A DNA stretch of 64,000 nt from contig NC_133665.1 in NCBI RefSeq assembly GCF_037893015.1, forward strand, positions 23,322,869-23,386,868. Direction: 5' to 3'. Position numbers and translations under genes: made by a program. Shown one piece after another: positions 5,695-53,600 of this stretch. Position 1 is the stretch's first letter, and the number at the start of each line of letters is the position of its first letter. The DNA is from Macrotis lagotis (lineage: Eukaryota > Chordata > Mammalia > Peramelemorphia > Peramelidae). Below the pieces are notes generated by a model. That model was not told the DNA's origin. It worked only from the letters and a program-made list of their open reading frames with translations, and did not search any database.

Positions 5695-6752
5695 ATGAGC
5701 AAACAAAATAAAAAGAAAAAATCTTACCATAGAAAATTACTTTGGTTCCATGGAAAATTCAGAAGATGACAAAATCAAAGTGTCTCTACCCCAAACCTCC
5801 AAGAGAAATAGAAAATGAATGCAATCAAAATGAATGCAATCAAAAAAGACATTGAAAAGCAATTAAGGGAGGTAGAGAAAAAATTGGGAGGAGAAATGAG
5901 AGCAATGCAGATAATCATGAAAAAACAAATCATCATCTTGGTGAAAGAAATAGAAAAAAATACTGAAGAAAATATTATGTTAAGAACCAGTTTAGGCCAA
6001 ATGGAAAAAGCAACAAAAAAGGCAAATGAGGAGAAGAATGCCTTAAAAAGCAGAACTGGGCAGCTGGAAAAGGAGATTAAAAAAGCTCTCTGAAGAAAAT
6101 AACTCCTTCAAATGCAGAATGGAACTAAAGGAAGCTGATGACTTTATGAGAAATCAGGAAGAAATAAAACTATTCCAAAAAATGAACATTAGAAAAAAAT
6201 GTGAAATATCTCATTGGAAAAACAACCAATGTTGAAAACAGATTCAGAAAAGATAATTTAAAAATTATTGGGCTACCTGAAATTCACAACCAGGAAAAGA
6301 GTCTAGACTTTATTTTTCAAGAAATAATATAGCAAAATTGCCCTGAGATCTCAGAAGCAGAGGGTAAAATAGAAATTAAGGGAATTCACCAATCATCTCC
6401 TAAAAGAGATCCCAAAAGAAAAACTTCCAGGAATATTATAGCAAAATTACAAAACTCCCAAGTCAAAGACAAAAAACTAAAAGTTGCCAGAAGCAAACAA
6501 TTGAATTACAGGATTACAGAGGAGCTGGCAGCATCTACATTGAGGGCTCATAAGGCTTGGAATATGATATCCCAGAAGGCAAAAGATCTTGGTTTATAAC
6601 CGAGAATCAACTATCCAGCAAAGCTGAACATACACTTTCAGGGCAAAAGATGGACTTTCAATGAAGAAGGGGACTTTAAAACTTTCCTGTTGAAACAACC
6701 AGAGCTGAACAGAGAGTTTGATCTCCATGTACAGGACTCAGGTGAACCATAG
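5695..6752 (+). pseudogene. Decayed ORF1 of HAL1 copy a
   Basis: In intact L1, ORF1p is a trimeric coiled-coil RNA-binding protein that coats the element's own RNA. The frame starts MSKQ at 5695, like copy c (MSKQRYKRKTIEKYF). It shifts repeatedly. A 92-codon window at 5815-6093 keeps the coiled coil, with repeated LGQMEKA and GQLEKEI heptads. After that come an RRM-like block (NRFRKDNLKIIGLPEIHN in two frames, near 6238-6300) and the C-terminal domain ending QDSGEP and TAG at 6750-6752. Several indels and stops make it non-functional. Confidence 0.75.
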
Positions 6753-7530
6753 AAAGGGATGATGAGAAGGACTAATTATAAGGAACTAAATGATGTTGAA
6801 CTGTTTGTTTTCCTGAATGGGAAGAAGATACTGATAACTCATATGAACTTTCTTATTTATAAGTGCAGTTAGAAGGAACATATTACAGACAAGGCACAGG
6901 AAGGAGCTGAATATAATGGTATGATATAGTAAAAAGATGGCATCAATGGGTGATAAAGGAAAGTACTGGGAGGAAGAAGTAGCTAAGATATTTCACATAG
7001 AGTCAAGAAAAAGCTTTTTCAATGGAGTGGAAAGAAGGAAGGCAAGGGGGAATGAGTGAGTCTTCATTCTCATCATAAATGACTCAGAGAGGAAATAACA
7101 TATACACTTAAGTAAGATAGAAATCTATCTTAACCTAGAGAAAAGTGGAAGAAAGGGATGGGATAAGGGGGAATGGGAGGAGGGAAGGGGGGAAATACGT
7201 GATAGAAGAGAGAGAAGATCAAGGGAAAGAGTACAATACACTTTTGAACAGGGACAGGGTGAAAGGATAGAGAGAATAGAATAAATGAAAATGGGAAGGA
7301 ATAGAGTAAAGGTAAATACAGCTAGTAATGGAAACTGTGGGAAAAATATTGACGCAACTTCTTTGGTAGACTTATGATAAAGAAGGCAACTCATCCCAGA
7401 GACAGTCTGAACACAGACTGAAGTATATTATTTTCTCTCTAATTATTCTTGAGGTTTCTCATTTTTTGGGGGGGAGGGGGTCTATGTTTACTCTTGCAAC
7501 AAGATTATTTTAATAATATAAAATAAACAA

Positions 7531-7927: not shown

Positions 7928-8106
7928 AGGGAGGAGAAATGAGAGCAATGCAGATAATCATGAAAAACAAATCATCAGCTTGGTGAAAGAAATACAAAAA
8001 AATACCAAAGAAAATATTATGTTAAGAACCAGTTTAGGCCAAATGGATAAAGCAACACAAAAAGGCAAATGAGGAGAAGAATGCCTTAAAAACCAGAACT
8101 GGTCAT
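7928..8106 (+). repeat. Second, local copy of a HAL1 ORF1 segment
   Basis: About 178 bases from GGGAGGAGAAATGAGAGCAA to CTTAAAAACCAGAACTGG repeat positions 5886-6063 of HAL1 copy a with only about eight differences by eye. The same region of copy c is much more diverged. It has no flanking 5' UTR, 3' region or A-tail of its own, so it looks like a local duplication rather than a separate insertion. Confidence 0.8.
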
Positions 8107-20635: not shown

Positions 20636-20999
20636 CAACCCTGAGGTTTTTTAGAAAGATTTTATTTATTTTGAGTTTTACAATTTTTCCCCTGATCTTG
20701 CTTCCCTCCCCCCACCCCCACAGAAAGCAGTCTGTTAGTCTTTACATGGTTTCCATGGTATACATTAATCTAAGTTGAATGTGATGAGAGAGAAATCATA
20801 TCCTTAAGAAAGAAGAATAAAGTATAAGAGATAGCAAAATTACATAATAAGTTTTTTTCTAATTAAAGGTAATAGTCTCTGGTCTTTGATCAAATCCCAT
20901 GATTCTTTTTCTTTTTAATCTTTTATATTTATTTTATTTTTGTACAAATGATGTTTTTTATATACATTATTAAAATATTCTCATGCAAGAGTAAACATA

Positions 21000-21153
21000 G
21001 GGTGGCTAGGTGGCACAATGGATAAAGCACCGGCCCTGGAGTCAGGAGTACCTGGGTTCAAATTAGGTCTCAGACACTTAATAATTATCTAGCTGTGTGG
21101 CCTTGGGCAAGCCACTTAACCCCACTGCCTTGCAAAAACCTAAAAAAAAATAA
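21000..21153 (+). mobile_element. Young-looking tRNA-derived SINE inside HAL1 copy b
   Basis: GGTGGCTAGGTGGCACAATG, GGAGTCAGGAGTACCTGGG, AGACACTTAATAATTATCTA, CAAGCCACTTAACCCCACTG and an A-tail. A 10-base TSD, AGTAAACATA, is at 20990-20999 and 21154-21163. Copy c lacks it, so it inserted after b was in place. It has no T-to-C excess. Confidence 0.92.
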
Positions 21154-21253
21154 AGTAAACATAATACCCTTCCCCCAAAAAACAAAGACCCTCATGAGCA
21201 ATAAAGTAAAGGAAAGAAGAAAAAATTAAAATTAAAAAAAAAATAATAATAAT

Positions 21254-21402
21254 TGGGGCAGCTAAGTGGCACAGTGGATGGAGCACTGACCCTGGAGTCA
21301 GGAGCACCCAAGCCCAAATGCGGCCTCAGGCACCCAACAATCACCCAAGTGTGCAACCCCGGTCAAGCCACCCAACCCCATCTGCCCTGCAAGCCCCCCA
21401 AA
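21254..21402 (+). mobile_element. Hypermutated SINE embedded in HAL1 copy b (position B)
   Basis: The SINE head is clear (GGGGCAGCTAAGTGGCACAG), but the body reads GAGCACCCAAGCCCAAATG, GCACCCAACAATCACCCAA and CCACCCAACCCCATCTGCCC. Compared by eye with the SINE at 27798, about 19 T-to-C but only about one C-to-T change. An (AAT)n run follows at 21401-21457. Copy c has related SINEs at the matching place. Confidence 0.85.
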
Positions 21403-21457
21403 TAATAATAATAAATAATAATAATATTATTAATAATAATAATAACAATAATAATAA
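21401..21457. repeat. (AAT)n microsatellite in HAL1 copy b
   Basis: AAT units with interruptions, replacing the A-tail of the adjacent SINE. A shorter counterpart is at 42724-42742 in copy c. Confidence 0.9.
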
Positions 21458-21642
21458 ATGTGCTTCAGTCTGTGTTCCAACACCACCAACTCTGTCGTGG
21501 ATGGATCACATTCTTTAAAATAAGTCAATCACAAAAGCTACTTCCATAATTTTCCACTGTTGCCATTGCTGATAGCAACTCCCTCCATCTGCACTTCCCC
21601 ACTACCATACTCCTTTCACACTATCCCTCTTCTTAAATGTTC

Positions 21643-21803
21643 TATAGGGTAGTTGGGTGGCATAGCAGACTGATCACCGGCCCTGGGGCCAAGAAGCCCC
21701 AAGCCCACATACCACCCCTAAAGCCCAGCAATAACCCGGCCCTGTGGTCCCAGATAGGCCATCCAATTCCAGCCCCTTGTAAGAAGTGAAAAAAAAAAAA
21801 ACC
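21643..21803 (+). mobile_element. Strongly diverged SINE embedded in HAL1 copy b (position A)
   Basis: GTTGGGTGGCATAGCAGACT, CACCGGCCCTGGGGCCAAGA AGCC, CCCACATACCACCCC and AGGCCATCCAATTCC, then an A-tail at 21787-21801. The changes CTGGGGCCAAGAAGCC and ATACCACCCCT are shared with the SINE at 42937-43085 in copy c, so they arose before the two copies separated. Confidence 0.8.
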
Positions 21804-22296
21804 TGTTAAATCTGACCATGCTCCCCCATGGTCCACCTTCTCCTCCATCACTCACATTCCCCCCCATTCCTGTCCCTCTTCTCTCCTTCTTATTCCAGAT
21901 GTCGATACCCCATTGAGTATATATGCTGTTTCCTCTCCTGGACACCTCTGATGAGAGCAAAGGTTCCCGCATTCCCCCTCACCTTCCCCCCTTCCATATC
22001 ATTGAAATAGCTCATTGCAATAAAAAACATCTTATTATATGAAATATCTTAGCCTATTCTATCTTGGCTTTCTCTTACTACCATTATATTTCCCTTTTAG
22101 CCATTGACTCCATTTTTACAATATATTATATCTTCAAATTCAGCTCTCTCCTGTACTTCATCTATAAAAGCTCCTTCTACTTGCTCTATTAAATGAGAAG
22201 TTTCTTATGAGTATTATCAGTATCATTTTTCTATTCTGGAATACATGTAGTTCATCATCACTAAGTCCTTCATATTTTACCCTTCTCCTCCACTCT

Positions 22297-23371
22297 CTAT
22301 GCTTCACCTGAGTCCTGTATTTGAAGATCAAACTTTCTGTTCAGCTCTGACCATTTTAACAGGAACATTTGAAATTCCCCTGGTTCATTGAAAGTCCATC
22401 TTTTTCCCTGGAAAAAGACATTTAGTTTTGCTGGGTAGTTGATTCTCGGTTGCATTCTGAGCTCTTTTGTCTTCCGGAATATTATATTCCAAGCCCTACA
22501 AGCCTTTAATGTAGTTTCTGCTAAGTCCTGTGTGATCCTGACTGCAGCTCCATGATAACTGAATTGGCTGCTTGTAATATTTTCTCTTTGACTTGGGAGT
22601 TCTGGAACTTGGCTATGATATTCCTGGGGTTGGTTTTTTTGGATCTCTTTCTCAGGGAGAACAGTGGATTCTCTCAATTTCTATTTTGCCCTCTGCTTCT
22701 AGGATATCTGGGCAATTTTCCTATAGGAATTCTTTAAAAGTGATGTCAAGGCTCTTTTCCTGATCATGACTTTTAAGTATCCCAATAATGTTTAAATTAT
22801 CTTTCCTGAATCTGTTTTCCAGATCAGTTGTTTTTTTCAATGAGATGTTTCACATTTTCTTCTAATTTTTCATTCTTTTGTTTTTGAAGTACTGTGTCCT
22901 GACTTCTCATAAAGTCTTCAGCTTCCTTCAGCTCCATTCTAGATCTGAAGGACTTGTTTTCCTCAGAGAGCTTTTTTTTCTTCTTCCATCTGGCCAATTC
23001 TGCTTTTTAAAGCATTCTTCTCCTCAATAACTTTTTGAACTCTTTTATCCATTTGGCCTAAGCTGGTTAACATGCTATTTTCTTCAGCACTTTTTTGGAT
23101 CTCCTTGACTAAGCTGCTGACTTCTTTTTTTATGTTTTTCCTGCATCACTCTCATTTCTTTTCCCAATTTTTATTCTGTCTCCATCAATTGATTTTCAAA
23201 ATCTTTTTTTTTTGAGCTCTGTCATGGCCTGAGTCTAACTTTTGTTTTCTTGGAGTCTTTAGATGCAGAAGTTTGGACTTCCTCATCTTCTGACTGAATA
23301 TTTTGATCCTTCTTGGGATGATAGATAAAGTATTTCTCAATGGTGTTCCTCTTTTTCCTCTGTTTACTCAT
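22297..23371 (-). pseudogene. Decayed ORF1 of HAL1 copy b
   Basis: The start codon complement is at 23369-23371 (MSKQR-like). The coiled-coil part (23340-22850) is frameshifted. The C-terminal domain is open for 126 codons at 22297-22677 and ends QDSGEA and a stop, with the conserved stretch AAVRITQDLAETTLKACRAW and INYPAKLNVFFQGKRWTFNE. In L1 ORF1p this domain works with the RRM in RNA binding and chaperoning. Frameshifts upstream make it non-functional. Confidence 0.75.
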
Positions 23372-24189
23372 TTCCCCAGCCTGTGGCTGGTCTTAGGGTG
23401 CTTCCTGAGCTTTTGAGTATTATTGGGACACCCCCACAAGGACCTCAATGTGTGAGGCTCTGACTACTCTCCTGGTCTGTGAATGACTACAAAAACACCC
23501 CTCTGCCACAGGGCTGAAGTGAGGGGGGGGACCCTGCTGTTCTAAGGGAGGGCCTAGACTGTGATCAGGATCTGAATGTGGTCAGAGCCTCAGAGTCCAG
23601 TTCCAGGTACAGAGGACAGACCTCGGAAGTCTCTCTCCACTCCCATACCTAGGCTGAGTACTCAAGGCTGAGCTGCCTTGGGGTTCCTGCTTACCCACTC
23701 CACCTGCTTCTGGTTCCTGGATCTGAGATGCTGTGGCCACTCTGCTGGCTGAGTGCTAAGGGCTGGGCTTGGCACACTTGCTCTCGCTGAGGACCCCTGT
23801 TGATCTTCCAAGTTGAGCTTGGTGCTCCCTGAGGTGATTGTCAGGAAACTGCCCCCACTGCCGTGAGCTGAGGCTCTCAGCACCCTGGGGGGTGCCTCCA
23901 GGAGGCTAAAGTTCCTTCACTCTGGAGGGCCAGCCCTGTGAAGTGGAGCCTTTCTGCTGTTTTCCAGGCTTCCTTGGGCTATAGAACTGCCTCACTGAAT
24001 CCCTCTGTGTGTTCTGTCTCTCAAAAATTTAGTTAGAGTCCTTAGTTTATAAGTTTTGAGAGAGAGCACCTAAGAGAGGATCTTCTCCTGTTGCTATCTT
24101 GGCTCCACCTCTCCCAACCCTGAGTTTTTGATCCATAATTCTCCCTGACTAGAAAGCTCTTCTGGAAAGAATAATAAGACAAAAAGAGT

Positions 24190-26040: not shown

Positions 26041-26044
26041 GAAA

Positions 26045-26121
<77 letters not shown>

Positions 26122-26214
26122 GAAAGAAAGAAAGGAAGGAAGGAAGGAAGGAAGGAAGGAAGGAAGGAAGGAAGGAAGGAAGGAAGGAAGGAAGGAAGGA
26201 AGGAAGGAAGGAAA
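26041..26214. repeat. (AAAG)n/(AAGG)n compound microsatellite
   Basis: About 23 AAAG units switch at about 26133 to about 20 AAGG units. It creates the artificial low-complexity open frames of Lys/Glu/Arg on plus and Ser/Phe/Leu on minus. Confidence 0.97.
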
Positions 26215-26289
26215 GTAGGCTCATTGACTAAGGATAAAAGAGATCAAACTATCTGTAAAAAGGTGAGGAGGGGCAAAAATAAATTCAAT

Positions 26290-27797: not shown

Positions 27798-27950
27798 GGG
27801 GCAGCTAGGTGGCGTAGTGGATAAACCACCAGCCCTGGACTCAGGAGTACCTGGGTTCAAATCTGGTCTCAGACACTTAATAATTACCTAGCTGTGTGGC
27901 CTTGGGCAAGCCACTTAACCCCATTTGCCTTGCAAAAACCTAAAAATACA
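27798..27950 (+). mobile_element. tRNA-derived SINE, useful plain reference copy
   Basis: GGGGCAGCTAGGTGGCGTAG, CAGGAGTACCTGGGTTCAAA, CACTTAATAATTACCTAGCT and CAAGCCACTTAACCCCATTT, then a short A-tail. TSD GAGTTAATA at 27788-27796 and 27951-27959. I used it as the comparison for the hypermutated SINEs. Confidence 0.93.
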
Positions 27951-42200: not shown

Positions 42201-42393
42201 AACAATTGGAATTTTCTTTTTTTAATTTTCTTTTTTTATTCTCATTTTGTATAAAGGTTTTTTTTACATTAATAAAATATTCTTGTTTAAGAGTAAACAA
42301 AATAGCCCCCCCATGAATATAGATTTTCTTGGGCAATAAAGTAAAGGGGAGAGGAAAAAAATTAAAATTAAAAAAAAATAATAGTAATAATTG

Positions 42394-42540
42394 TAGGTAT
42401 GGCCAGGTGGTGCAATGCACGAAGCACCAGCCCTGGAGCCATGAGCACCCGAGCCCACATCCAGCCCTGTAGACCCAACAATCACCCAGCCATGTGACAT
42501 GCAAGCCACCCGATCCCCACTGTCCTGCAAAAACCAAAAA
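42394..42540 (+). mobile_element. Hypermutated SINE embedded in HAL1 copy c (position B, first of two)
   Basis: AAGCACCAGCCCTGGAGCCA, GAGCACCCGAGCCCACATCC, GACCCAACAATCACCCAGCC and AGCCACCCGATCCCC. By eye it has about 17 T-to-C against one or two C-to-T relative to the SINE at 27798. The run ACCCAACAATCACCCA is shared with the copy b SINE at 21254-21402. Confidence 0.82.
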
Positions 42541-42587
42541 GAAGATAAAAAAGACACAAAATAAAATAAAATAGTAATCATAGTAGG

Positions 42588-42722
42588 GGTGGCTAGGTGG
42601 CAGACAGAGCACTGGCCCTTGAGCCAGGAGCACCTGGGCCCAAATCCGGTCTCAGACACCCAAAGATCACCCTGCTATGCCCCAGGCAGGCCACCCAGCC
42701 CCATTTGCCCTGCACCCTCCCC
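42588..42722 (+). mobile_element. Hypermutated SINE embedded in HAL1 copy c (position B, second of two)
   Basis: GGTGGCTAGGTGGCAGACAG, GAGCACCTGGGCCCAAATCC, CACCCAAAGATCACCCTG and GGCCACCCAGCCCCATTTG. It shows about ten T-to-C changes by eye. It is directly followed by an (AAT)n run like the SINE in copy b. Confidence 0.8.
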
Positions 42723-42936
42723 CAAATAATAATAATAATAAAAAATATGCTTCAGTCTTTGTTTCAACACCAACAACTCTGTCATGGGTGGATCTCATTC
42801 TTTATGGTAAGTCCATTGCAAAAGCTGCTTCCATATTTTTCCAACATTGCCATTGCTGATCGCAACTCCCTCCTTTCTTATTTCTCCACTACCATGTACT
42901 ATATTTTCTCTCTCCTTTCACTCTGACTCTGCTGTA

Positions 42937-43085
42937 GGGTCACTGAGTGGCGCAGCAGAGAGATTCCTGGTCCTGGGGCCAAGAAGCCGTGAGCCCCCAT
43001 ACCACCCCTCAGGCCCAGAATCCACCTCGCCCTATGGTCCTGGACAGGCCATCCAATCCCAGCCCCTTGAAAGAAGTAAAAAAGA
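42937..43085 (+). mobile_element. Strongly diverged SINE embedded in HAL1 copy c (position A)
   Basis: ACTGAGTGGCGCAGCAGAGA, TGGGGCCAAGAAGCCGTGAG, ATACCACCCCTCAGGCCCAG and GGCCATCCAATCCCAGCC, then an A-rich tail. It is the counterpart of 21643-21803 in copy b, with the same unusual sequence and flanks. Confidence 0.8.
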
Positions 43086-43573
43086 AAATGTGTTATATCT
43101 GACCACTCTCCCGCCATGGTCCATCCTCTCCTCCTTTATTCACCTCCCCACCCCTTCCCCATGCTCTCCCCTACTTCTTACTCCAGATGTCTATACCCCA
43201 TTGAGCATATATGCTGTTTCCTCTCCTAGTTACCTCTGATGAGATCAAAGGTTGCCTCATTCCCCCCTGCCTCCCCCTTCCATATCATTGCAATAGCTCA
43301 TTGTAATAAAAAAAACTTATTATATGAAATATCGTGGCCTATTCCCCCTCTCCTTTTTCTTTCTCCCATTACATTTCCCTTTTTTCTATTGACTCCATTT
43401 TTACACTATATTTTATCCTCAAATTCAGCTTTCTCCTTTTCTCCATCTACCTGCTCTATTAACTGAGAAGGTTCATATGAGTATTATCAGTGTCATTTTT
43501 CTATGCAGGAATACATGCAGTTCATCATTATTAAGTCCCTCATATTCTCCCTCTCTCCTCCAATCTCCATGCT

Positions 43574-44639
43574 TCACCCAAATCTTGTATCTGAAGATCA
43601 ATCCTTGTGTTCAGCCCTGGCCATTCCAAAAGGAACATTTGAAATTCCCCTGGTTCATTGAAAATCCATCTTTTTCCCTGGAAGAGGATATTCAGCCTTG
43701 CTGGGTAGTTCATTCTTGGCTACATTCTAAGCTCTTTTGTCTTCCAAGGCCTTTGTATTCCAAGCCCTACAAGCTTCCAATGTAGTTGCTGCTAAGTCCT
43801 GTGTGATCCTGACTGCAGCTCCACCATATTTGAACTGTCCTTCTGGCTGCTTGTAATGTTTTCTCTTTGACTTGGGAGTTCTGGAACTTGGCTATAATAT
43901 TCCTAGGGGTTGGTTTTTGGGGATCTCTTTCTCAGGGGGATCGGTGGATTCTCTCCATTTCTATTTTGCCATCTGCTTCTAGAATATCAGGGCAATTTTC
44001 CTGTAGTAGTTCTTTGAAAATGATGTCAAGGCTCTTTTCCTGATCATGACTTTCAGGTATTCCAATAATTTTTAAATTATCTTTCCTAAATCTGTTTTCC
44101 ATATCAGTTGTTTTTTTCAATGAGATATTTCACATTTTCTTCTAATTTTTCAATTTTTTGGTTTTGACGTATTGATGCCTGATTTCTGGTAAATTCATCA
44201 ATCTCCCTGAATTCTATTCTTTGTCTGAAGGATTTGTTCTCCTCAGAGAATTTTCTTATCTCTTTTTCCATCTGGCCAATTTTGCTTTTTAAGGCATTCT
44301 TCTCCTCAATAAATTTTTGAACTGTTTTATCCATTTGACCTAAGCTGGTTTTTAGAATGCTATTTTCTTCAGCATTTTTTTGGATTTCCTTGACTAAGCT
44401 GCTGACTTCATTTTCATGTTTTTCCTGCATCTCTCTCCCCTTTCTTTTCCCAGTTTTTCTTCCAACTCCCTCATTTGATTTTCAAAGTCTTTTTTGAGCT
44501 CTGTCATAGCCTGAGCCCAATTTCTGTTTTTCTTGGAGTCTTTAGATGCTTCCTCTTCAGACTCAGTATTTTGATTCTTCTTGGGCTCATATGCAAAATA
44601 TTTTTCAATGGTCTTCCTCTTGTATCTCTGCTTGCTCAT
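43574..44639 (-). pseudogene. Best-preserved HAL1 ORF1 (copy c), frameshifted
   Basis: It begins MSKQRYKRKTIEKYFAYEP and is open for 81 codons (44639-44394). The coiled coil is in a second frame (44430-44104: LKTSLGQMDKTVQKFIEEKN, then LKSKIGQMEKEIRKFSEENK). The RRM is in a third (44120-43932: ENRFRKDNLKIIGIPESHD, then ERIHRSP), followed by the C-terminal domain (AKLNIL-type region near 43700). The expected final stop TAG reads TGG. Heptad leucines, the RRM basic patch and the C-terminal order match L1 ORF1p, the trimeric RNA-binding protein of L1 particles. Frameshifts make it inactive. Confidence 0.8.
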
Positions 44640-45396
44640 TTTCCCAGCCTGGGCCTGGTTTGGGGGTGCTTCCTGAGCTTTTGGGACACTCCCACAAGGG
44701 TCTCAGTGTGTGAGGCTCTGTCCTCCCTCCTGGTCTGTGAATGACTATATGTGCCCCCCTCTGCCATGGGGCTGAGGTGGAGGGGGCCCTGCTGTTCTAT
44801 GGGGGGCCTAGACTGCTATCAGGATCTGAATGTGGTCAGAGCCCCAGAGTCCTGTTCCAGAGGCAGAGGACAGAGCTCTGCAGTCTCTCTTCACTCCCCT
44901 CCCTCAGCTCAATGGGCTCATGCCCTGGAGGCTCCCACTTACTGGCTCCACCTACTTCTGTTTCTGGATCTGGGCTGGAGAAACACCAAGCTGCTCTCTG
45001 TGTGCCCTGAGGGCTGGGCTCCACATGCTTTCTCTGGCAGAGGTCCCTGGCTGTTCCCCCACTTTGTGCCAGTGCTCCCTGGGGTGCAGCTCAGGAGACT
45101 CCCCCGCTGCTGTGAGCTGTGTCTCCCAGCTCCCTGGGGCTGCCTTGGGGAGACTGAAGTTCTTTCGCTCTGGTGGGCCACCCCTCTGGCAGGCCGCCCC
45201 TCCGACCCTGGGGAACAGAGCCTTTCTGCTCTTTTCCAGGTTACCTTGAGTAGGAGAACTGCCTCACTGGGTCTCTTTGTGGGTTCTGTCTCTCAAAAGT
45301 TTAGTTAGAGTCCTTAGTTTCAAGTTTTATCAGAGAGCACCTAAGACTAGATTCCTTCTTGTCACCATCTTGGATCCACCAACAATTGCCATTTTC

Positions 45397-46130: not shown

Positions 46131-48715
46131 TTTGGCAAAGATGGTAAAGAGAAGACAAGCACTGTGCTAAGGTCTCCTGATCTTTCCTCAAATATAATAT
46201 GAAACAAACCTATTAACAGAAATTAGTTTGACAAAACAGAAAAAGAAGCTGGGAGAAGAACATCAACTGCAAGGTTTGTCTTCAGGGATTGAGGGTGAGC
46301 CAGGCACAGAGAGCAGAGAGCCTGACAGGAGGGGTGAGAACTAGACTAGCCTAGGATCAGCCACAGAGGTGACCGTGTGAGTCACAGTCCAAGAGCCAAC
46401 TGGGGCACAGAGGCTTTAGCTGTGGGACTGACAGTCTGGGGCACTCTGGCCAGGCTAGAGGGTGAATTCCATTGTGGAGAGTTGCAGATATTGATCCACT
46501 GGGCTCAGCTGGTCTGGAAGATCTCAGGCTCCATACTTTCACTTCAGCAGAGTCCTCTTCCCAGAACAAACACAGTAACTGCCCCCACCCCACCTCAGGC
46601 TCTCTCAGCTGAAAAGGGAAGAGTAATTATTTTGGCCCAGGGCATAGCCCACATTGCTCAAGGATAAAAACAGCAACACTCACCCCCTACAGGCCAAGGG
46701 AGAAGGTTTCAAATCAAGGTCACAGTCACTCCAGATAAATCAATGAGCACCCCCCATTGGCTGGCCCTCTTGGAGTTATTAAACTCATTGAATAAAGCCT
46801 CTAGGAATTTCAACACCAAATTTCTGTGAAACAGCCAAATTCCCAATATAAAATCTCAGGAGAATGAAGGAAGGCCAGCAGAAAGCGGGGTCCATAGAAA
46901 ACTATGTCAAAAACAAAGACAATAACTCAAAGAGATATAGAATCTCTGAGAAGAATATGATTTGTTCTCCAGCCCAGAAAGTCATCCTTGAAGAAATCAG
47001 GAAGGAGTTTAAAAATCAATTGGAAAATTTGGAGAAAAAAACTAACAACTTGCAGCAAGAAAATAAATCCTTGGAAAATACAATTGGACCAATACAACAA
47101 AACCTCAGTTGGTCAAATGGAAAACTCTTTCAAAAATAGAATTGAACAACTGGAAAAGGAATTGCAAAAGGTAAAGCAAGAAAATTCCTCTCTAAAAAAA
47201 AAGAATGGAGTCTGTGGAAACTAGTGACTTCATGAGACAAGAATCTGTTGAAGAAAACCAAAAAAAATGAGAAAATAGAAGAAAATGTAAAAATATTTTA
47301 TCAGTAAAACCACTGACCTTGAGAATAGAATGAGGAGAGACAACCTAAGAATCATTGGGCTTCCTAAAAATATTAAAGAGTAAAAAAATCCTGAACTTGA
47401 TGGAAAACTGTCTAGATATCATGTGCCCAGAGGGAAAAATAGTTATTGAAATAATGCATCAATTCCCTCTGAAAAGACATCATAAAATGAAAACATCAAG
47501 GAATGGTGTGTCTAAATTCCAGAACAATCAGATCTATGGAAAGGGAAGCATTTTATGACCAAAGAAGAGATGGAGAACATCATTTGAAAACACACTAGAT
47601 AATTTTGATTGCATTAAGTTAAAAAGCTTTTGCACAGGCAAAAACACTATAACCAAGATTAAAATAAATGTAAACAATTTTTACAACTAGTACTTCTGAC
47701 AAGGGACTCATTTCTAAAATATACAGAGGACTGAGTAAATTTTTTTTAAAAAAAATCCATTCCCCAATTGACAACTGGTTAAAGGCTACACAAAAGCAAG
47801 TTACAGATAAGGAAATCAAAGTGATCCATGCTTATTTGGAAAATTGCTCTAAATCACTACTTATTAGAGAAATTAGAGGTACCACCTCACAACTCTCAGA
47901 CTGGACAATATGATCAGAAAGGACAATGGAAGGGATGTGGGAAATCAGGACAAAATGCATTGTTGGTGGAGCTATGAACCCATCCAAACTTTCTGGAGAA
48001 CAACTTGGAATTATACTCAAAGGGCAGTAAACATGTGCATACCCTTTGAGTCAGCAGTACCACTACTGCATCCATACCCTGAAGAAATTATGAGAAAGGG
48101 TAAAAACATCACTTGCACAAAAATATTTATAGCAGCAGTGTTTGTGGTGGCAAAGAATTGGAAATTGAGTGAATGTCCATCAATTGGGGAATGGCTTAAT
48201 AAACTATATATATGATGGAACACTGTGGTTCTTTTAGAAACCAGGAGAGATGGGAATTCAGGGAAACCTGGATGGATTTTCATGAACTGATGCTGAGGGA
48301 AATGAGCAGACCCAGAAGAGTATTGTACAACCTAATAGCAACATGAGGGTGATGATCAGCCTTGATGCACTTACTCGTTTAATCAGTGCACAATCAGGCA
48401 CAATTTGGGGGTATCTATGATGTAGAATACAATCTGTATCCAGAGAAATAATTGTGGAGTTTGAATAAAGACCAAATACTGTTACCTTTAATTTAAAAAA
48501 AAAACAAACTAATACCTTATTATTTAATTTTGGTATCTCTTATACTTCATTTTTCCCCCTTAAGGATATGATCTCTTTCTCCTATTCAACTCAGATCAAT
48601 TTATACCATGGAAACAATGTAAAGACTAACAGACTGCTTTCTTGGGGGGGGGGAGCAGGGAAACAAGATTAGGGGAAAAATTGTAAAATTCAAAATAAAT
48701 TAATAAATTTTTAAA
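46131..48715 (+). mobile_element. L1-D: sense L1 with ORF1 fused to the ORF2 3' end by deletion
   Basis: An intact-looking 5' end (GGCAAAGATGGTAAAGAGAA GAC; L1-C has the same on minus at 56594) is followed by the 5' UTR and ORF1 from 46864. Within ORF1 at about 47528 the sequence jumps to the end of ORF2 (ATGGAAAGGGAAGCATTTTA TGACC) and continues to the 3' UTR and A-rich tail at about 48700. The deletion removes the ORF1 end and all of the endonuclease and reverse-transcriptase region. Confidence 0.83.
46864..47528 (+). pseudogene. Truncated ORF1 of L1-D
   Basis: It opens MKEGQQKAGSIENYVKNKD at 46864 and runs 91 codons. The coiled coil (LENLEKKTNNLQQENKSLE, then RIEQLEKELQKVKQENSSLK in a second frame) is followed by a frameshifted RRM region (LRIIGLPKN-like near 47350). 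The C-terminal domain is cut off by the deletion junction. Non-functional. Confidence 0.72.
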
Positions 48716-50235: not shown

Positions 50236-50629
50236 TATATAGCCTATTTTGTTTATTTTTAAAATTTATTTATTTATTATGAATTTTACAATTTTCCCCT
50301 TAGTCTTGCTTCCCTCCCTCCACTCCCCCCCAACAGAAGGTAGTCTGTTAGTTTTTACATGGAAACAATGTATCTAACATTGATCTAAGTTGAATGGAAG
50401 AGAGAGAGATCATATCCTTAAGGAAAAAAATAAAGTATAAGAGATAGCAAAATTAAATAATAAGATAACAGGATTTTTTAAAATTAAAGGTAACAGTATT
50501 TGGTGTTTAGTCAAATTCCACAATTCTTTCTCTGGATACAAATGTTATTCTCCGTCATAGATATTTCAAAATTGTGCCTGATGAAATGAGCAAGTCCATT
50601 AAATTTGATCATCACCCCCATGTTCCTAT

Positions 50630-53600
50630 TAGTGTGTACAATATTCTTCTGGGTCTGCTCATTTCACTCAGCATCAGTTCATGCAAATCCTTCCAGGTTT
50701 CCCTGAATTCCCATCCCTCCTGGTTCCTAAAAGAACCATAGTGTTTCATCACATACATAGTTTATTAAGCCATTCCCCAATTCATGGACATTCACTCAAT
50801 TTCCAATTCTTTGCCACCACAAACACAGCTGCTATGAATATTTTTGTACAAGTGATGTTTTTACCCTTTCTCATAATCTCTTCAGAGTACAGATCCAGTA
50901 GTAATATTGCTGGATCAAAGGGCAAGCACATTTTTATTACCCTTTGGGTACAATTCCAAGTTCCTCTTCAGAAAGCTTGGATGAGTTCACAACTCCACCA
51001 ACAATGCATTATTGTCCCAGATTTCCCACATCCCATCCAAAATTGATTATTGTCTTTTCTTGTCATATTGTCCAGTCTGAGAGTTGTGAGGTGGTACCTC
51101 TAATTTCTCTAATAAGTAGTGATTTAGAGCAATTTTTCATATGACTATGGATCACTTTGTCTTCCTCAACTGTAAATTGCTTTTGCATATCCTTTGACCA
51201 TTTGTCAATTGGGGATTGGATTTTATTTGTAAAAAATTGATTCAGTCCTCTGCATATTTTAGAAATGAATCCTTTGTGAGAAGTACCAGTTGTAAAAATT
51301 GTTTCCCAATTTACTACATTTCTTTTGATTTTAGTTACAGTGATTTTCTCTGTGCAAAAGCTTTTTAATTTAATTTTTAATTTAATCAAAACTATATAGT
51401 GTGTTTTTAAATGATGTTCTCCATCTCTTCCTTGGTCATAAAATGCTTCCCTTTCCATATATCTGACAGGTAAATTACTCCTTGATCTTCTAGTTTGCTT
51501 ATAATACTATTTTTTTCCAAACATGGCATCCATTTTGATCTTATCTTGGTATAGGGTATGAGGTGTTAGTCTAATATAAGTTTCTGGCATACTAGCTTCC
51601 AATTTTCTCAACAATTTTTATTGAAGAGAGAATCTTTATCCCAATGACTGGATTATTTGGGTTTATCAAGCAGTAGATTACTATAATCATTTCCTGCTAT
51701 TGCGCCTAGTCTACTTCACTGATCCACCAATCTATTTCTTAGTCAATACCAGACTATTTTGATGACTGATACTTTAAAATATAATTTTAGAAGTGGTAGG
51801 GCTAAGTCACCTTCTTTTGTACTTCTTTTCATTGAATACCTAGAAATTCTTGATGTTTTATTTCTCCATTTTTTCTAACTCAAAGTAGTTTTTTGGAATT
51901 TTGCTTGGTAGGGCACTAAATAAGTAATTTAATTTAGGTAGAATTGTCATTTTTATTATATTAGCTTGGCCTATCCCTGATAGTTGATATTTGCCCAGTT
52001 ATTTAAATCTGATTTTATTTGTGTGAGAAGTGTTTTGTAATTGTTTTCAAAAAGTTTCTGAGTCTGCATTGGCAGGTAGACTCCCAAGTATTTTATATTG
52101 TCAGAAGTTACTTTGAATGGGATTTCTCTTTCTAGTTCTTGCTGATGCATCTTTCTTGTCATATACAGAAATGTTGAGGATTTATAGGGTTTATTTTATA
52201 TCCTATGACTTTTCTAAAATTGCTAATATTTCTAATAGTTTTTAGATAATTTCTTGGGATTGTCTAGGTCTACTATCATGTCATCTGCAAAGAGTGAGAG
52301 TTTTGGCTCTTCCTTCCCAATTCTAATTCCTTCAATTTCTTTTTCTTCTCTTATTGCTGAAGATAACATTTCTAATATGCTATTGAATAGTAGGGCAGCT
52401 GAGGTGCAGTGAGCACTGGCCCTGGAATCAGGAATACCTGAGTTCAAATCCAGCCTCAGATACTTAATAATTGCCTATCTGTGTGAACTTGGGCATGTCA
52501 CTTAACCCCATTGCCTTGCAAAAAACAAACAAACAAAATATTGAATAGTAGTGGTGATAATGTGCATCCTTGTTTCACCCATGATATTATTTGGAATGCC
52601 TCTAGCTTATCCTCATTGCATATGATGCTTGTTGTTGGTTTCAGATAGATACTGCTTATTATTTTAAGGAACAATCCATTTATTCCTACACTCTCTAGTA
52701 TTTTTAGTAAGAATGGGTGCTGTATTTTGTTAAAAGCTTTTTCAGCATCTATTGATATAATAATTTGATTTCTGATAGGTTTGTAATGATATAATTAATT
52801 ATACTAACAGTTTTCCCAATATTGAACCAACCCTGCATTCCTGGAATAAATACTACTTGGTTACAGTGTATTATCCTAATGATGACTTCCAATCATTTTT
52901 GCTAAGATTTTATTTGAGATTTTTGCTTCTATATTTATCAAGGAGATAGGTCTATAATTTTCTTTCTCTGTTTTAACTCTTCCTGGTTTCGGTATCAGCA
53001 CCATATTGGTGTCACAGAGTTAGACAGAGTTCTGTCTTCCTCTATTTTTCCAAAGAGTTTATATAGAATTGGAACCAATTGTTCCTTAAATATTTGGTAA
53101 AATTCACTTGTGAATCCATCAGGACCAGGAGATTCTTTCTTAGGGAGTTCAATGATGACTTGTTGAATTTCTTTTTCTAAGATAGGGTTGCTTAGGTATT
53201 TAATCTCCTCTTTATTTAACCTGGGCAACTTATATTTTTGTAAATATTCATCCATTTCACTTAGATTATCAAATTTATTGGCTTAGAGTTTGGCAAAATA
53301 ATTCTGAATTATTACTTTAATTTCCCTGTCAATGGTGGTGAGTTCACCTCTTTCACTTATGATACTAGCAATTCGGTTTTCTTCTTTCTTTTTTTTTAAT
53401 CAAATTAACCATAAGTTTATCAATTTCATTAGTTTTTTTTAATAAAAACAATTCTTGATTTTATTTATTAGTTAATAGTTTTCTTGCTTTTGATTTTATT
53501 AATTTCTTTGTTAATTTTTAATTTCTAATTTGGTATTTAATTGGGGGGTTTTAATTTGCTCTTTCTCTAATTATTTAGGTGCATGTTTATTGCATTGATT

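Follow-up and report, generated by a model that had tools for sequence, protein, structure and literature searches.

According to the sections considered here of a study on ultra-edited human RNAs, these transcripts are mostly Alu sequences, and they carry clusters of A-to-G changes in which a G at the 5' neighbour position is depleted (PMC3197674). Comparable clusters are described for retroviruses: three integrated BLV proviruses contain A-to-G clusters within about 70 bp that are ascribed to ADAR1 in the available portion of that report (PMC8025556), and RAV-1, avian leucosis virus, HTLV-2 and STLV-3 are named for ADAR1-type A-to-G clusters in the corresponding portion of another (PMC8586724). 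A survey of genomic traces of editing gives, in the passages considered, 247 G-to-A clusters against 129 A-to-G/T-to-C clusters in human retrotransposons (PMC2873906), and a review states, in the part considered, that ADAR1 restrains L1 and Alu through binding and not through editing (PMC5974252). Among titles and abstracts on editing, retroelements and HAL1, a set that leaves subscription papers mostly uncovered, none was found to concern a LINE or HAL1 lineage in which A-to-I edits have become fixed.

The sequence analysed here is a 64-kb stretch of the genome of Macrotis lagotis (contig NC_133665.1 of assembly GCF_037893015.1, positions 23,322,869 to 23,386,868), hereafter the window, in which SINEs embedded in HAL1-like elements carry clustered A-to-G changes on the HAL1-sense strand only, read as T-to-C on the plus strand. 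They resemble the ultra-edited Alu RNAs, as far as the sections considered describe them, in having one-strand A-to-G clusters in SINE stretches able to pair with a complementary SINE, but the Alu changes occur in RNA only, while those of the HAL1 SINEs are in DNA and inherited; moreover, the duplex partner is a neighbouring inverted Alu in the former and would have acted in trans in the latter (PMC3197674). The likeness to the retroviral clusters would lie in an edited RNA being reverse-transcribed, in BLV with integration in DNA (PMC8025556, available portion); unlike these retroviruses in infected cells (PMC8025556, PMC8586724), a non-LTR element is concerned here, and a germline sublineage would have arisen from its edited copy. 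With the editing of retrotransposons by APOBEC enzymes, in the passages considered, the pattern shares clustered, strand-biased mutation tied to reverse transcription, but APOBEC gives G-to-A on the sense strand, which is the opposite type of change (PMC2873906).

HAL1-like elements and their SINEs

Three related elements lie in the window, which we take to belong to the HAL1 family; the SINE and HAL1 content gives the window a marsupial appearance. Copy A (20906..24109, minus strand) consists of an ORF1 and a 3' UTR holding three SINEs, two of them old and antisense and the third of later date, and copy B (42213..45380, minus strand), which was aligned to it, holds three antisense SINEs; the two are 78.8% identical over 21228-24109 (2.9 kb) and 75% identical over 20906-20997. 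Copy C (5842..7529, plus strand) has a homologous ORF1, 3' UTR and 3' end but is SINE-less, and served as the comparison element; a second HAL1 ORF1 piece (7929-8105), 78% identical to copy A at 22991-23165, lies just downstream of it. The ORF1 piece of copy A at 22297-22677 matches the Tnp_22_dsRBD profile (32 bits, cut-off 22.2), and those of copy B, within 43932-44639, give one below-cut-off Transposase_22 match (18.6 against 22.4 bits). ORF1 passes straight to the 3' UTR in the alignment, which is the half-L1 layout of an L1-type ORF1 without ORF2; as judged by open frames alone, the copies contain no ORF2-sized frame and no frame above 187 aa, and all of them have frame breaks. The window also contains a GAAA/GGAA microsatellite of about 170 bases (26044-26217) and an inverted repeat pair (47672-48386 and 50578-51304), presumably pieces of L1, which are 88-89% complementary and about 2.2 kb apart.

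An HMM built from 11 free SINEs recovers those 11, five SINEs embedded in copies A and B, and six older free copies; four weak matches (31 to 60 bases long, with E from 0.0066 to 0.41) were left out. All five old embedded SINEs are on the plus strand, antisense to HAL1. A1 (21253..21402) has C at 18 of the 31 consensus T's, B1 (42394..42540) at 20/30 and B2 (42585..42722) at 16/29; B1 has the left flank of A1, and B2 sits at the HAL1 site of A1 as judged by the right flank. The older pair A3 (21646..21792; T-to-C 18/31) and B3 (42936..43082; 16/31) occupies one and the same HAL1 site and has many other changes besides, with a divergence of 41% and 44% from the free consensus; this pair had escaped the first-pass annotation. 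Because A1 matches B1 on its left and B2 on its right, copy A, which has one SINE at 21154-21444 where copy B has two (42292-42760), looks as if it had lost a segment by SINE-SINE recombination, or as if copy B had gained one. A further SINE (21000..21153, plus strand) was inserted when copy A was already in place, being bounded on both sides by the target duplication agtaaacata, and serves as an internal control.

Substitution spectra of embedded and free SINEs

Changes were counted against the majority consensus of the 11 free copies, each of which was itself scored against a leave-one-out consensus; the six older free copies did not contribute to the consensus, and SINE tails beyond the 136-base core were not counted. 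In the five embedded SINEs T-to-C affects 88/152 sites, as against 24/174 for C-to-T, 28/161 for A-to-G and 33/180 for G-to-A, while the corresponding values in the 11 free SINEs are 18/328, 42/373, 28/333 and 42/391. When related copies are treated as independent, the ratio of T-to-C to C-to-T differs between embedded and free SINEs with p = 1e-9 (Fisher), and T-to-C differs from A-to-G within the embedded SINEs with p = 7e-14; a more conservative test at the level of sites, counting those changed in any of A1, B1 and B2, gives 22/29 for T and 11/33 for A (p = 0.001). Copy by copy, T-to-C outnumbers C-to-T in 5/5 embedded SINEs and in 0/17 free ones, with two ties (p = 4e-5). Two T sites, 19 and 115, are T/C-polymorphic among the free copies, and without them T-to-C stands at 80/143 in the embedded SINEs against 5/304 in the 11 free copies; these two were dropped from the site, pattern, half, context and site-agreement counts, and kept in the 88/152 and in the G-run test described below. 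At the 96 of 136 sites that are near-invariant among free copies, T-to-C and other changes number 15:6 in A1, 17:14 in B1 and 14:9 in B2, and 17:24 in A3 and 14:27 in B3.

An alignment artefact was rejected, since T-to-C is the highest-rate transition in 5/5 embedded copies against each of five references with a neutral aligner. Great age alone was also rejected: the six older free SINEs show T-to-C at 8/125 and C-to-T at 27/142, at a local-alignment divergence of about 20-26%, which is below that of A3 and B3.

The first-pass annotation had noticed the excess by eye, and it proves stronger than was then described. Against the plain free SINE used as its reference (27798..27950, plus strand), a recount of 21254-21402 gives 19 T-to-C, 1 C-to-T, 4 A-to-G and 8 G-to-A, close to the earlier estimate of about 19, 1, 4 and 7; for 42394-42540 the recount is 21 T-to-C and 5 C-to-T (17 and one or two before), and for 42588-42722 it is 15 and 2 (about ten T-to-C before). 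The later SINE at 21000-21153, the single control of its kind, has 2 T-to-C and 3 C-to-T against the same plain SINE and thus a normal spectrum, as had been stated. The dismissal of GC-biased conversion also holds, since that process would raise A-to-G as well and the later SINE is unaffected.

The changes common to A1 and B2 have an unusually pure composition: when only those present in at most one free copy are kept, as in all pair counts of shared changes, there are 12 T-to-C and 0 others, and the full list adds one T-to-C, one C-to-T and one A-to-G, each of which 3 to 5 of the 11 free copies also have. Outside the T sites, the similarity between A1 and B2 (0.77) is below that of each to the two free copies with which they were compared (0.80 to 0.85), which leaves them hardly any other common history. 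The changes in common are older than the split of the A and B lines, and the 12:0 spectrum, together with this near lack of other shared history, indicates that the T-to-C changes of A1/B2 came as a burst before the lines parted. The burst may have struck the SINE shortly after its insertion into HAL1, or it may have preceded that insertion. A3 and B3 have 12 T-to-C and 20 other changes in common, and these 20 mark their SINE as older. Along the first 50 bases of A1 and B2 (21253-21302 and 42585-42640) common T-to-C occurs at 0/6 T sites, and along the remainder at 12/22.

Rival origins of the pattern

The first alternative is a SINE that was C-rich before its insertion into HAL1, or a duplication, within HAL1, of a single mutated SINE; the shared C's would then go back to one founder and not to repeated editing. 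Six T sites that are not polymorphic in the free copies are C in 5/5 embedded SINEs, A64C and C123T are common to B1, A3 and B3 and absent in the 11 free copies, and G23A and A113G are common to B2, A3 and B3; the flanks that A1 shares with B1 on one side and B2 on the other also fit a duplication, and in our reading the patterns of A1, B1 and B2 fit a founder with C at 17/29 sites followed by ordinary C-to-T decay. Nevertheless, the 11 free copies have C only at scattered T sites (the 5/304 outside the polymorphic sites) and the older free copies are likewise poor in it, and 0/17 free copies in the window belong to a subfamily with the same C's, whose existence would have spoken against the earlier proposal. 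GCCC replaces the GTTC of the tRNA-type B box in 5/5 embedded SINEs, a replacement that should stop Pol III transcription of a free SINE, so a founder requires a free SINE whose B box was already broken, and no free copy in the window resembles such a SINE; a search for the GCCC B-box motif gave 11 matches with at most one mismatch, where 6.6 are expected, the three exact ones being A1, B1 and B2. A1 and B2 moreover differ from B1 at variants 34/35, which vary among the free copies as well. A founder with at least 12 T-to-C changes and nothing else would itself still demand hypermutation, and A-to-G on the antisense strand by way of RNA would need an antisense carrier such as HAL1. The three insertions do not agree significantly in which sites are changed (over all sites p = 0.10 to 0.41, without TG sites 0.27 to 0.53), and neither common descent nor a common site preference is therefore claimed from it. 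On balance, a C-rich founder is an unlikely source of the pattern. The SINE patterns were also scanned in collections of viral contigs and genome contigs, with 0 matches.

G-runs and quadruplexes are a feature of L1 3' UTRs, and selection for them on the sense strand of the HAL1 3' UTR could have driven A-to-G in the SINEs. Runs of at least three G on that strand number 6 to 10 in each embedded SINE, as against 2 in the one free SINE tested, a loose quadruplex motif occurs in 4/5 of the embedded SINEs, as well as in copy C and in the UTR of copy B (it is absent from the tested UTR segment of copy A), and G-run bases exceed random placement in A1 (p = 0.013) and A3 (p = 0.011). In B1, B2 and B3, on the other hand, there is no such excess (p = 0.14, 0.14 and 0.58), changes that create no G-run are common (site 85 in 3/5 copies, site 89 in 4/5), site 66, where a change would make a G-run, is unaltered in all embedded SINEs, and 12 adaptive changes without any other in between are hard to square with stepwise selection. 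A UTR stretch of 150 bases beside the A3 SINE (21796-21945) has T-to-C at 21/53 sites, counted where A and B agree against copy C, which speaks in favour of such selection and is roughly double the rate of the UTR otherwise, the remaining non-coding segments giving 2/41, 10/58, 8/42 and 9/65; it is of low complexity, G-rich on the sense strand and weakly aligned, and it may reflect editing beyond the SINE, drift of an L1 G-rich tract, or misalignment. Such selection appears improbable as the main cause.

A strand asymmetry affecting the whole HAL1 lineage, due to errors of reverse transcription or to transcription-coupled repair and merely showing best in the SINEs, is less probable still. At sites where copies A and B agree and differ from copy C, a comparison that cannot be polarised, the 3' UTR has T-to-C at 47/217, C-to-T at 28/128, A-to-G at 12/120 and G-to-A at 12/51, so that T-to-C exceeds A-to-G in rate and C-to-T in number, as such an asymmetry could produce; the ORF1 values, equally unpolarised, are 28/385, 19/154, 19/171 and 17/117. 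However, T-to-C at the agreeing sites of A1 and B2, with polymorphic site 115 included, reaches 13/23, which exceeds both the UTR (p = 0.0007) and ORF1 (p = 9e-9), the UTR has remained T-rich on the plus strand (36-41% T and 27% C, against a T/(T+C) of 0.24-0.30 in the embedded SINEs), and changes private to A or B in the UTR amount to T-to-C 21/338 and A-to-G 7/178. The SINE-less HAL1 sequence thus has a weaker T-to-C bias than the SINEs, except in the low-complexity stretch beside A3. In the older pair, the share of T-to-C among the changes common to A3 and B3 does not exceed that in the UTR (p = 0.70), but the rate per T does.

APOBEC/AID activity, which gives C-to-T, was rejected for the wrong type of change, and deamination of DNA within an RNA:DNA hybrid, which would place A-to-G on the other strand, for the wrong strand.

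Proposed RNA editing copied into DNA

The first-pass annotation had proposed that HAL1 RNA was edited from A to I and then reverse-transcribed. This proposal is partly supported: the strand bias, the concentration in embedded SINEs, their antisense orientation, the normal later SINE and the 12:0 spectrum all fit it, and the neighbour signature is mixed. ADAR favours A's preceded by U or A and followed by G, and disfavours those preceded by G. On the HAL1-sense strand the changed A's of A1=B2 make up 5/8 of those preceded by U, 5/7 of those preceded by A, 1/9 for C and 1/4 for G (U/A against C/G, p = 0.009), and in B1 the values are 8/8, 5/7, 2/9 and 3/4 (p = 0.016). A3=B3 gives 2/8, 4/7, 3/10 and 3/4 (p = 1), and the sites changed in either A3 or B3 show no 5' preference (p = 0.45); in the UTR, where the values are U 7/47, A 20/80, C 5/24 and G 15/66, there is no U/A context. 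At the 3' side, the A's of A1=B2 are changed in 5/10 cases before G and in 5/7 before A. Depletion of 5' G, which is reported in the sections considered on ultra-edited Alu RNAs (PMC3197674) and which the earlier proposal had named as its support, is seen in A1=B2 (1/4) and absent in B1 (3/4) and A3=B3 (3/4), each on four sites. The low rate at a sense 5' C may be confounded by CpG decay of T-to-C changes made at TG: some G-to-A beside such changes is expected if the newly made CpG decays, and of the G-to-A changes 2/6 in A1, 1/6 in B1, 2/3 in B2, 3/9 in A3 and 1/9 in B3 are so placed. The 5' context appears ADAR-like in two of the three SINE sets, and as an enzyme signature it is suggestive only.

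Judged from the sequences, hyperediting of HAL1 RNA by ADAR followed by reverse transcription is the best explanation, with about an even chance of being correct, and it would cover strand, place, timing and purity together. In a marsupial-type HAL1 lineage, SINEs would have come to lie antisense within the 3' UTR, and in at least one HAL1 RNA these antisense stretches would then have formed duplexes in trans with the abundant RNA of sense SINEs. In the paired stretches about half of the adenosines would have been converted to inosine by an ADAR-type enzyme; hyperediting can reach about half of the A's, and the proportion of sites that are C in two or more of A1, B1 and B2 (17/29) is near that. 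The L1 machinery would have reverse-transcribed the edited RNA, with I read as G, and the resulting HAL1 copy would have become the founder of the sublineage that holds copies A and B. We infer that the SINE lay within HAL1 at the time of change, that the change took place in RNA, and which duplex partner and enzyme were involved. Counting against editing are the number of SINE-bearing HAL1 copies (two, within one window), the missing 5'-G depletion of B1 and A3=B3 and the indifferent 5' context of the latter, the possible CpG decay behind the low rate at a 5' C, the share of T-to-C in A3=B3, which does not surpass that of the UTR, the high T-to-C rate of the UTR beside A3, the G-run excess of A1 and A3, and the statements of the review and the survey cited at the outset.

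More tentatively, and at somewhat less than even chances, the case may be one of RNA editing written into the germline and inherited by a transposon family: a hyperedited HAL1 transcript would have returned to DNA, persisted and given rise to a sublineage, perhaps because it paired less firmly with SINE RNA once A-U pairs were lost. Edited RNA would then have re-entered the germline and multiplied there; to our knowledge, edited RNA otherwise re-enters DNA only in retroviruses of infected cells. Such events, if real, would be rare or overlooked, since the review, in the part considered, attributes the action of ADAR1 to binding and not to editing (PMC5974252), and the survey, in the passages considered, has an excess of G-to-A (PMC2873906). 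If the editing explanation is true, the effect of ADAR on L1-type elements would be testable by sequence alone, and marsupial genomes would preserve a fossil record of germ-cell A-to-I editing, legible in SINE-bearing retrotransposon copies genome-wide.
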